A stretch of DNA of 49,040 nucleotides from an uncultured Candidatus Saccharibacteria bacterium (GTDB lineage Bacteria; Patescibacteriota; Saccharimonadia; Saccharimonadales; Saccharimonadaceae): contig CAMVAM010000008.1 of the NCBI GenBank assembly GCA_947165465.1, positions 1-49,040 of the forward strand, read 5' to 3'. The translations under genes and the position numbers were made by a program. Every line of letters starts with the position of its first letter. Position 1 is the first letter of the stretch. This document shows, piece by piece, positions 14,957 to 26,483 of the stretch. The notes under the pieces are model-generated. The model saw only the letters and a program-made list of their open reading frames with translations, did not search any database and was not told the origin of the DNA.

Positions 14957-15004
14957 ACTCCACATTTAGTGTTAAAAAGTCCTTGACACCACTATATATA
15001 GTGT
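14957..15004 (+). promoter_or_regulatory. Paired NrdR boxes over the promoter of the 15066 gene
   Basis: Box 2 at 14989-15004 reads CCACTATATATAGTGT and matches the NrdR consensus ACACWATATATWGTGT at 15 of 16 positions; its inner 14 bases (14990-15003) are a perfect palindrome. Box 1 at 14957-14972 (ACTCCACATTTAGTGT) matches at 12 of 16. Their starts are 32 bp apart, about three helix turns, the usual geometry of NrdR tandem sites. Box 2 lies inside the promoter spacer, so binding should block RNA polymerase. Confidence 0.8.
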
Positions 15005-15011
15005 ATATAAT
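14983..15011 (+). promoter_or_regulatory. Consensus promoter of the 15066 gene
   Basis: TTGACA (14983-14988), a 17-bp spacer and TATAAT (15006-15011) make a full sigma-70 consensus, the strongest promoter seen in this window. The leader is about 48 nt with a weak AGAAAGAAAG ribosome site. Confidence 0.8.
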
Positions 15012-15065: not shown

Positions 15066-15503
15066 ATGAAGAAAATCATTTACAAGAATCCGAACGACGC
15101 TTGCACCTTCGACATTAAGCGCTTCGTAAAATCGCTCGAAAGGTATGCCAAAGTTAGCGAAAAGGAAGTTGAGTCTGCACTTGAGAATTTCGAACAGTAC
15201 GAAACTATGCACGTCTCCTGCCTCGTTGAAGTTGGCATGAAGCTCATCGCCGAGAAAAAAGGCGAAGCAGCCGCTAAAGAATACTTCAACGAATATGCCG
15301 AATACTTCGATGAAGGCAAATTCGAACGCCTTCGCCGCATCACCGGTTATCTCGTCGGTACTCTCGATCGTTGGAACGATGCCAAAAAAGCCGAAGAGCA
15401 CGCCCGCGTCAAGCACTCTGTAAACTCCGCCATTGATGACGCCGAGCGCCTTGCCGCCCTCGAAACTCAGGCAATGGAACAGAACATCGCCTATGCTCAC
15501 TGA
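15066..15503 (+). CDS. Small NrdD-tail-like protein (possible stand-alone glycyl-radical domain)
   Basis: A 145 aa protein. Residues about 95-120 read RRITGYLVGT...WNDAKKAEEHARVKH, which resembles the C-terminal glycyl-radical loop of class III anaerobic ribonucleotide reductase, where the radical Gly sits in R(V/I)xGY and is followed by a WN-GK-E-R pattern. The remaining NrdD body and the CxxC zinc pairs are absent. The N-terminal about 90 residues are helical with Cys at 13 and about 59. A paired NrdR box and strong promoter support a role in deoxynucleotide supply. By analogy with YfiD/GrcA for pyruvate formate-lyase it might be a spare radical domain; that is inference. Confidence 0.55.
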   Translation: MKKIIYKNPNDACTFDIKRFVKSLERYAKVSEKEVESALENFEQYETMHVSCLVEVGMKLIAEKKGEAAAKEYFNEYAEYFDEGKFERLRRITGYLVGTLDRWNDAKKAEEHARVKHSVNSAIDDAERLAALETQAMEQNIAYAH

Positions 15504-23555: not shown

Positions 23556-24740
23556 ATGCCAGAAATTAAACCGACAGAGGTGGAAAGCAAAGCAAGTATT
23601 AAAGTTGTAGGCGTCGGCGGTGCCGGTGGTTCCGCAGTCGAACGCATGAAAGAAGTAGGTCTTACCGGTGTTGAATTCGTTGCAATCAATACCGATGCTC
23701 AAGCTCTTCATCATTCTTCAGCCGATGTGAAAGTTCACATTGGTAAAGGTTTAGGAGCTGGTGGCGATCCAGAAAAAGGCCGCGAAGCCGCCGAAGAATC
23801 CCGTGAAGCCATCGACAAAGCTCTTGATGGTGCCGATATGGTCTTCATCACCCTCGGTGCTGGTGGTGGTACCGGTTCTGGTGCTGGCCCAATTGTCGCC
23901 GAAGAGTCCCGCAAGAAAGACATTTTGACCGTTGGTGTTGCTACGAAGCCATTCACCTTTGAAGGCGCTCGTCGCCGTGCTAACGCTGATATTGCTATCG
24001 ACAAACTTGCTCGCCAAGTAGATGCAATCATCACTATTCCAAACGATCGTCTCCTTCAGACTATCGATCCTCGCACTCCGCTTCTCGAAACCTTCAAGAT
24101 TGCCGATGATGTTCTTCGTCAAGGCGTCCAAGGTATTTCTGAGCTCATTACCGAGCACTCGCTCATCAACCTCGACTTTGCCGATGTTAAATCCATTATG
24201 AAGAACGCCGGCTCCGCCCTCATGGGTATCGGTCGTGCATCTGGTGAAAATCGTGCCGTTATCGCTGCTCAACAAGCTGTTGAATCACCACTTATCGAAG
24301 TCAAAATCGAAGGTGCTCGTGGCGTCCTCTTCTCAGTCGCTGGTGGCTATGATATGGCCATGTCCGAAGTTCAAGAAGCCGCCGAAGTTATCACCGGTTC
24401 CGTTTCTCCGGATGCCAACATCATCTTTGGTGCTTCCATCCGCCCAGAACTCGAAGACGAAATTGTCGTCACCGTAGTTGCTACCGGCTTCGATTCCGAA
24501 TATTTCAACGCCCAAGCTGCCGCTCCGGTTGTTGAACCAGAAGAAAAGCCAGCTGCTCCAGTCTTCACCCAAGAAGCTCCAGCTGCTGATACCAAAGAAT
24601 TTGCTACTGAGACTCGTTCTAACATGTGGGATTCCATCAAGAACGAGCCAACCGAACCAGAAGCAACAGCTACCGATGATGAAATGGACGTTCCACCATC
24701 CCTTCGTGAACGTCTAAGGAGCAAAAAGAATAAGAAATAG
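23556..24740 (+). CDS. ftsZ: Cell division protein FtsZ
   Basis: Tubulin-like GTPase that forms the division ring. The N-terminus has VGVGGAGGSAVERM, the tubulin signature is GAGGGTGSGAGP (about 105-116), and the T7 loop NLDFADVKSIM (about 206-216) carries the catalytic Asp. A variable acidic linker (about 315-380) follows. The C-terminal end VPPSLRERLRSKKNKK resembles the peptide that binds FtsA. 394 aa. Confidence 0.97.
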   Translation: MPEIKPTEVESKASIKVVGVGGAGGSAVERMKEVGLTGVEFVAINTDAQALHHSSADVKVHIGKGLGAGGDPEKGREAAEESREAIDKALDGADMVFITLGAGGGTGSGAGPIVAEESRKKDILTVGVATKPFTFEGARRRANADIAIDKLARQVDAIITIPNDRLLQTIDPRTPLLETFKIADDVLRQGVQGISELITEHSLINLDFADVKSIMKNAGSALMGIGRASGENRAVIAAQQAVESPLIEVKIEGARGVLFSVAGGYDMAMSEVQEAAEVITGSVSPDANIIFGASIRPELEDEIVVTVVATGFDSEYFNAQAAAPVVEPEEKPAAPVFTQEAPAADTKEFATETRSNMWDSIKNEPTEPEATATDDEMDVPPSLRERLRSKKNKK

Positions 24741-24748
24741 GAGCGTAC

Positions 24749-25198
24749 ATGGACCACAAATTCCGTATCGGAGATAGCAAAGTTCTAGAAAGCCGAGAAA
24801 CGGTAGATGGCACCATGATTCGTCGTCGTCGTGAAACGCCGGATGGTCGGCGTTTTACTACTTATGAACGTATTGAAATGCCACCGCTCACAGTTTTAAA
24901 GCGCAGTGGCAACAAAGAAATCTTTGATCGCGACAAACTTCTCCTCGCTGTCAAACGCAGTGTCGGCAAATTCTTTAACTCCGAGCTCGAAATCGAAGAA
25001 GTCATCACTCGCGTCACGGACATTCTTTACTCCTATGGCACCGAGCAAATCACATCAAAGCAAATTGGTGAGGCCGTCCTCGACGTACTCGCCGAAGTCA
25101 ACGAAGTCGCCTACGTCCGTTTCGCCAGCGTCTTCCGCGAGTTTAAAACACTAGAAGATTTTGAAAACATTTTGAAGGAACAAAAAGGGAAGAAATAA
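24749..25198 (+). CDS. nrdR: Transcriptional regulator NrdR without zinc ribbon cysteines
   Basis: Repressor of ribonucleotide reductase genes that senses dATP/ATP through its ATP-cone. The zinc-ribbon region aligns (DHKFRIGDSKVLESRETVDG, then RRRRETPDGRRFTTYER), but all four Cys are gone: the usual CPFC is HKFR and the usual CxxC is TPDG with one residue missing. The arginine patch IRRRRE needed for DNA contact is kept. The ATP-cone runs from VLKRSGNKEIFDRDKL (about 48) to about 140. 149 aa. Two NrdR-type boxes at 14957-15004 are a likely target. Confidence 0.93.
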   Translation: MDHKFRIGDSKVLESRETVDGTMIRRRRETPDGRRFTTYERIEMPPLTVLKRSGNKEIFDRDKLLLAVKRSVGKFFNSELEIEEVITRVTDILYSYGTEQITSKQIGEAVLDVLAEVNEVAYVRFASVFREFKTLEDFENILKEQKGKK

Positions 25199-25453
25199 AT
25201 GAGGGTGGTATGTGTTTATCGTGACAACGAGGATTATTCTCGTAGCGTCACCGAATGGATTGAGAATTTACGCCGTCAAACCGGCTACGAAATCGAAGAA
25301 ATGAGTCCGGACGAAGATCCTGGCTTCTGCGAAGCCTATGACATCGTCGAATATCCTACGATTATCGCTATTGATGACAACGGCGCCGTTCGTAACTCCT
25401 GGCGTGGCCGCACTCTACCACTTTTAAACGAAGTCCTTTATTATTTAATCTAA
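25199..25453 (+). CDS. Thioredoxin-fold small protein lacking CxxC
   Basis: An 84 aa protein starting directly after the nrdR stop. The pattern strand (VVCVYRD), helix, strand, then VEYPTIIAIDDNGAV with the cis-Pro YPT, matches the thioredoxin/glutaredoxin fold. The redox site is absent: where CxxC would stand the protein has NEDYS. Two other Cys are at residue 5 and in the FCEAYD segment, not a CxxC pair. Function unknown; likely cotranscribed with nrdR. Confidence 0.6.
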   Translation: MRVVCVYRDNEDYSRSVTEWIENLRRQTGYEIEEMSPDEDPGFCEAYDIVEYPTIIAIDDNGAVRNSWRGRTLPLLNEVLYYLI

Positions 25454-26299: not shown

Positions 26300-26468
26300 T
26301 CTATTAAAGCGTTATTAGCAGCTATCAACTGCGAGCTGACGGAAGAAAGGGAGACCGATTAGAACCGTTCGTGAATCCGCGTAAGAGATCAATTAAGTGC
26401 CGGCAACGCCGGAAATTGGATGGTACCGCTCAAAAAGAGTTCCAATGCGAAAGCATTGGATTTTTTAA
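26300..26468 (+). promoter_or_regulatory. T-box riboswitch leader of ileS
   Basis: The conserved core TGGTACCGC (26421-26429) is the T-box bulge whose TGGT can pair with tRNA ACCA. The antiterminator can form by TTGGA (26416-26420) pairing TCCAA (26441-26445), while the same TCCAA is part of the terminator. An upstream hairpin GCAG/CTGC encloses CTATCAA, giving an ATC (Ile) specifier candidate; the full stem I could not be assigned by eye. Uncharged tRNA-Ile should relieve termination. Confidence 0.8.
26441..26466 (+). terminator. T-box-controlled intrinsic terminator
   Basis: Stem TCCAATGC/GCATTGGA (26441-26448 with 26453-26460), a GAAA tetraloop and a T6 tail. It overlaps the antiterminator half-site, so the two folds exclude each other. 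It lies 18 nt before the ileS ATG. Confidence 0.85.
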
Positions 26469-26483
26469 TAATAAGGAGTCAAT

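Follow-up and report, generated by a model that had tools for sequence, protein, structure and literature searches.

The window, that is, the whole analysed stretch of 49,040 nucleotides (49 kb) from the genome of a member of Candidatus Saccharibacteria, a group of very small bacteria, contains an nrdR gene that starts 8 bp after the stop codon of ftsZ. The features of this locus are as follows:

23556–24740, forward strand: ftsZ, immediately 5' of nrdR
24740–24744: AGGAG ribosome site of nrdR
24749–25198, forward strand: nrdR orthologue without zinc-ribbon cysteines (149 aa, ATG start)
24749–24877, forward strand: zinc-less ribbon domain, residues 1–43 (from AlphaFold, contacts and dN/dS)
24890–25150, forward strand: ATP-cone, residues 48–134 (PF03477 profile)

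The 149-aa protein starts with MDHKFRIGDSKVLESRETVDGTMIRRRRETPDGRRFTTYERIE and contains no cysteine and a single histidine (H3). NrdR regulates the production of DNA building blocks. A zinc atom is thought to hold the DNA-binding part of NrdR together, and the four-cysteine site for it is absent here. The initial annotation had described an NrdR deprived of all four ribbon cysteines with the arginine patch and the ATP-cone retained, and this description is correct: the RRRR patch lies at R25–R28, and the ATP-cone profile PF03477 matches with 58 bits (cut-off 25.8). The ribbon profile PF22811 (Zn_ribbon_NrdR) also matches (37.1 bits, cut-off 27.2), the match covering profile positions 10–42 only, and the NCBIfam equivalog TIGR00244 scores 117.3 bits, just below its cut-off of 124.65. 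Since the zinc site is absent and the NCBIfam cut-off is not reached, we call the protein a zinc-less NrdR variant by descent and not a standard member. A phmmer search against the PDB revealed NrdR chains only, up to an E-value of 1 (best match 7p37, E 1.1e-24). The genome to which the window belongs (785 kb, 13 contigs, 98% complete) encodes a single NrdR-type protein.

Two further observations concern the surroundings of the gene. An 84-aa ORF (25199–25453) lies directly 3' of nrdR, before an mscS-type channel gene; a Pfam search with it gave no match, and a weak thioredoxin-like match was found (ResA model, E 0.078). The leader of ileS (26484) contains at 26300–26480 a TGGTACCGC stretch, which is T-box-like by eye; this region has no Rfam match at the gathering score.

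None of the four ribbon cysteines is present in any of the 80 relatives from public genomes (80/80; L032–L111; 80–99% identity), nearly all of which are titled Candidatus Saccharibacteria, including Candidatus Nanosyncoccus alces. As the loss is common to all of them, chance and sequencing error are excluded, and with them the assembly error that the initial annotation had named as a possible refutation. In the family sample of 61 genomes, 59 had a TIGR00244 match and 57 primary NrdR loci were read; in G018 and G056, the sole match is the ATP-cone of a reductase. Among the 56 readable family ribbons, 40 contain no cysteine at these positions, 16 contain all four, and no mixed state was found. 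A contig end interrupts one further locus (L167), whose ribbon lies on L175 and was counted as Cys-bearing. The alignment with other Saccharibacteria thus shows a lineage-wide loss (80/80 relatives and 40/56 family NrdRs). Relatives keeping all four cysteines, which had been proposed as a counter-argument, do not occur among the close relatives but do exist as the 16 more distant family members.

The Cys-less NrdR was sought within this phylum, the sequences read being those of 30 phylum genomes and of the family and class sets. All four cysteines were found in each of the 30 class-level NrdRs outside the family, in each of the 30 NrdRs from elsewhere in the phylum, and in all 13 NrdR2 paralogues read. 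NrdR2 (L168–L181 except L175) is a Cys-bearing NrdR-like paralogue with the pattern MxCxxC...NSR...WRRR, in which the DNA contacts have changed; many genomes of the class have such a second, weaker TIGR00244 match. A scan of the phylum gave a ribbon match in 159 of 240 genomes and, among the matches listed, all begin at profile positions 1–3. Where the best ribbon match was weak, with E of about 1e-9 to 1e-11, the genome came from the window's family (eight genomes). The cysteine reading left out three genomes, G133, G231 and G244, whose best E-values range from 1.4e-14 to 4.2e-14.

A maximum likelihood tree was constructed from the ATP-cone only (86 NrdRs, 113 columns, ribbon excluded); L006 was dropped due to an internal stop, and L167 was entered with its cone only. 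The 40 Cys-less sequences form one clade with support of 97/96, nested among the Cys-bearing family members, with one change of state. The ftsZ gene, identified by a simple GTPase-motif test, lies upstream of nrdR in 40/40 Cys-less loci, 11/16 Cys-bearing family loci and 26/30 class loci. Both descent and gene position are therefore shared with NrdR, which indicates the same gene, changed, and not a different one: the Cys-less protein is an orthologue of NrdR. Given that all 40 fall in one clade, the loss of the cysteines is best explained by a single event.

The residues that replaced the cysteines in the 40 Cys-less NrdRs differ in their degree of constraint. The Cys3 position is occupied by S (14), M (6), T (4) and others; the Cys6 position by Y (17), F (7), L (6), I (5), H (2), V (2) and one other residue; the Cys31 position by T (21), S (15) and A (4); and the Cys34 position by G (39), with one gap. 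The first CxxC would have given way to a short variable tail, a residue that is hydrophobic in most cases, and an IGDS turn, and the second to T/S/A-x-D-G, probably a tight turn; the hydrophobic residue may plug the former zinc site. No column of the ribbon contains Cys or His in more than 8/40 Cys-less NrdRs, so no replacement metal site is seen. For dN/dS (81 sequences), 400 pairs were drawn at random for each region, and 166, 250 and 142 of them were usable. The ribbon has a ratio of 0.033 and the cone one of 0.037, against 0.57 in the five-residue N-terminal tail, the former place of the CxxC; dS is saturated, so only the contrast between the regions counts. Purifying selection on the ribbon is strong (dN/dS of about 0.03). 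Zinc saving and protection from oxidation were considered as causes of the loss and could not be established: Fpg encoded in the window retains CVNC...CPNC and NrdD of the same genome retains CPHC, thus no genome-wide loss of zinc-finger cysteines is evident.

In the Streptomyces coelicolor NrdR–DNA complex, as described in the main text of PMC9110341, R12, R26–29 and R37 hold phosphates, D15 and R17 read bases, and the R17A substitution abolishes binding. The counterparts of R12, D15, R17, R26–29 and R37 in the window protein are K11, E14, R16, R25–R28 and R35, so that each contact residue described there is either kept or conservatively changed. In S. coelicolor numbering, R17, R26–29, R37 and E42 are present in 40/40 Cys-less NrdRs, and position 12 is R or K in 40/40. 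Position 15 is E in 40/40 and also in 45/46 Cys-bearing family and class relatives; therefore, this substitution is not coupled to the loss of the cysteines.

The AlphaFold model of the whole protein, built with 68 close relatives, has a mean pLDDT of 82.1 and contains a three-stranded sheet (residues 11–17, 23–29 and 35–41). When the ribbon was modelled alone, the five models had pLDDT values of 64–86, and the best of them (mean 86.2) contained the same three strands; as the program was fed with near-identical sequences, it may be recalling the family fold. In a Foldseek search, the first 12 matches of the ribbon were all NrdR chains (E 0.003–0.02), and the top matches of the whole model were all NrdR. 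The VIA Z of the ribbon alone against NrdR is weak (4.3–4.7, versus 3.5–4.1 for unrelated small sheets), which can be expected of a 50-residue model. The initial annotation had suggested that the protein must fold its DNA-binding part without zinc or read DNA in another way. The former is supported by the predicted sheet in the N-terminal ribbon, the lack of alternative ligands, the conservation of the ribbon and the retained contacts, all of which point to metal-free folding.

The putative targets of this repressor include a pair of NrdR boxes in front of another gene of the window:

14957–14972: NrdR box, upstream member, ACTCCACATTTAGTGT
14983–15011, forward strand: sigma-70 consensus promoter TTGACA-17-TATAAT (12/12 matches)
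14989–15004: NrdR box, downstream member, CCACTATATATAGTGT, separated from the upstream member by a 16-bp spacer
15066–15503, forward strand: stand-alone glycyl-radical protein (145 aa), NrdD C-terminal loop only

The downstream box fills the gap between the −35 and −10 elements of the promoter. It differs from the NrdR consensus in one position and is the near-perfect target site noticed in the initial annotation. Taken singly, such a site is not significant (for up to three mismatches in the 49-kb window, 0.41 sites are expected and a site is present in 34 of 100 shuffles), yet it has a partner 32 bp upstream, and the two form the only pair in the window scoring at least 22/32. A second pair was found upstream of nrdDG on a different contig (G000:C4, 102842–102857 and 102875–102890, 17-bp spacer), where one box sits between promoter-like hexamers. 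Paired NrdR boxes are thus present on both promoters. In the whole genome, 17 palindromic places with up to three mismatches were counted against 14 in the reversed control; single boxes therefore prove nothing, and only pairs were used. Two sites with two mismatches (G000:C2:93743 and C7:44804) were dropped for want of a strong partner (best pair 20/32 and none). Spacers of 15–17 bp are optimal in vitro for four NrdRs according to the main text of PMC12051234.

In the relatives, pairs at 31–33 bp were found upstream of 38/40 nrdD loci (shuffle mean 0.52) and of 28/30 loci of the stand-alone gene (shuffle mean 0.16; one of 31 loci, with 67 bases upstream, was excluded), the upstream regions being related to one another and these counts thus not independent. 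The window's genus shares its box consensus with four other Cys-less genera and with five Cys-bearing genomes. As boxes, spacing and contact residues agree with those of the Cys-bearing relatives, there is no need to assume a different way of reading DNA, and this suggestion is not supported. Two genomes whose sole TIGR00244 match is a reductase cone served for comparison. G056 (98% complete, without NrdR) has no box pair at either of its nrdD-like genes (L262 and L240), a control of n = 1. In G018 (85% complete, no NrdR match), a pair is present, which speaks against the link between NrdR and the boxes unless nrdR is merely missing from this assembly. A second NrdR was found in none of the nine genus genomes examined (9/9 without), which leaves the Cys-less protein as the sole candidate of NrdR type to use these boxes.

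The genes behind the two promoters would encode parts of one enzyme. The other putative part is located elsewhere in the genome:

L227, 1058–3253, reverse strand: nrdD without glycyl-radical loop (731 aa)

The start codon of nrdG lies directly at the nrdD stop. The PF13597 match of this NrdD ends at position 529 of 562, before the loop, and the 145-aa protein matches PF13597 at 532–562 of 562 and TIGR02487 at 550–581 of 581. Its loop comprises residues 85–117, with Gly94 as the candidate radical residue; PF01228 (Gly_radical), the domain of GrcA/YfiD, gave no match up to E = 1. In a hand count over 60 genus genomes, NrdD lacks the loop in 33, all but one of which (32; the exception is G379) encode the stand-alone protein with at least 74% identity. 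NrdD is intact in 26 others, eight of which also have a stand-alone protein (54–61%) and 18 do not; one genome, G358, shows neither. The GYL motif was found in 0 of the 30 short NrdDs read (of 33), in 10/10 intact NrdDs read, and in 31/31 stand-alone proteins, where it lies within RRITGYLVGTLDRWND. No class I/II reductase (PF02867) was detected in 60 genus genomes, with matches in 11/14 control genomes, and nrdDG is the only ribonucleotide reductase detected in the window's genome. With no loop in the NrdD of its own genome, the 145-aa protein would be indispensable as a subunit and not serve as a spare. It is likely that the zinc-free NrdR controls a class III reductase cut in two, to which the 145-aa protein supplies the loop in trans; NrdG would presumably activate it in trans. 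An intact NrdD with a stand-alone protein occurs also in G011 of the family sample (L249 and L263). Together with the eight genus genomes, it likely represents a spare-part stage that preceded the split; in all of these, the stand-alone protein is more diverged. The simplest reading, by analogy with GrcA/YfiD, would be that the duplicated loop first served as a spare part and then became the sole copy.

Several other explanations of the Cys-less protein were weighed. It is unlikely that the domain no longer binds NrdR boxes and makes other DNA or protein contacts, the boxes being used by another factor. The zinc site has indeed gone, though each of the 30 NrdRs read elsewhere in the phylum retains it, and D15 is replaced by E in the window protein; however, all arginine contacts and the base-reading R17 are kept (40/40), E15 is common in Cys-bearing class members, the boxes are unchanged relative to Cys-bearing genomes, and the genus genomes examined (9/9) encode no other NrdR to take them over. 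Retention of zinc by other ligands, within or between subunits, is very improbable: the second cysteine position is His in 2/40, but no ribbon column exceeds 8/40 for Cys or His, and the window protein has one non-conserved His and no Cys.

Even less can be said for a Cys-bearing NrdR2 lending its ribbon in mixed oligomers. An NrdR2-like match is also present in 19/40 Cys-less family genomes (counted by hand), but 21/40 lack it, the window's genome included, and its contacts are altered (D15 and R26 are replaced by N and W, respectively, in 13/13 read; R37 kept in 1/13). The idea of a degenerate or erroneous gene, that is, a pseudogene, an assembly error or a wrong start, has a negligible probability and is already refuted. 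The loss of the defining motif and the score below the NCBIfam cut-off might suggest it, whereas the agreement of 80/80 public relatives, dN/dS of 0.03, ftsZ upstream in 40/40 Cys-less loci, and the ribosome site with a start 8 bp after the ftsZ stop all contradict it.

Very probably, then, the locus encodes a zinc-free NrdR that works by the ordinary mechanism and whose entire metal site disappeared in one event. In this scheme, a large subclade of Saccharibacteria would descend from an ancestor whose zinc-ribbon NrdR had lost the site, and the three-stranded sheet would hold the DNA-binding face (K11, E14, R16, R25–R28 and R35) metal-free. The ATP-cone would still sense ATP/dATP, as expected from homology. 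At high dATP, tetramers would bind the paired boxes at the promoters of nrdDG and the glycyl-radical gene, so that RNA polymerase is blocked. The sequences themselves show the loss of the cysteines, the single clade, the selection, the retained contacts and the box pairs on both promoters; a fold without metal, binding to DNA, control by nucleotides and repression are what we infer.

The zinc ribbon is regarded as a defining feature of NrdR, a protein that has been put forward as a target for antibacterials. If our reading is true, this is a natural, selected zinc-free NrdR in which the metal is dispensable for the DNA-reading face, and a minimal metal-free scaffold for a direct test. In addition, its regulon pointed to an apparent spare-part-type glycyl-radical protein for ribonucleotide reductase, and an obligate one. 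A search of the main open texts did not find NrdR together with Saccharibacteria or Patescibacteria; among the matches listed for the loss of cysteines from zinc ribbons, none concerned NrdR. Viral contigs scanned with the window NrdR yielded 13 stretches that match a pattern, none of them a relative.

Compared with known NrdRs (TIGR00244; S. coelicolor 7P3F and E. coli 9FVR), the window protein has the same domain order, ATP-cone, RRRR patch and base-reading arginine, and paired 16-bp boxes about three turns apart likewise lie on reductase promoters. It differs in the absence of Cys3/6/31/34, in a shortened N-terminus and in the replacement of the last cysteine by Gly in a DG turn. A similar loss is said to have been described by Makarova, Ponomarev and Koonin in 2001 for the C+/C− ribosomal proteins, Zn-ribbon orthologues that reportedly lose cysteines and keep their function; these proteins reportedly bind rRNA, and their loss is tied to zinc starvation. 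In contrast, NrdR is a DNA-reading repressor, and Fpg and NrdD of the same genome keep their cysteines.

As for the reductase, no separate glycyl-radical chain for a class III enzyme was found in the papers searched, including PMC9669993, PMC8683613, PMC11528403 and PMC12288474. The split class II reductase NrdJa/NrdJb also consists of two chains but, unlike the reductase described here, is class II and is not split at a glycyl-radical domain (main text of PMC9669993). GrcA/YfiD, the spare part of pyruvate formate-lyase, is a small stand-alone glycyl-radical loop like the 145-aa protein; according to the main text of PMC8683613, spare-part proteins may exist beyond pyruvate formate-lyase, the only two validated both serving this enzyme. 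The 145-aa protein differs from GrcA/YfiD in matching NrdD (PF13597 and TIGR02487) and not PF01228, and it would be an obligate subunit, as its partner NrdD has no loop of its own.
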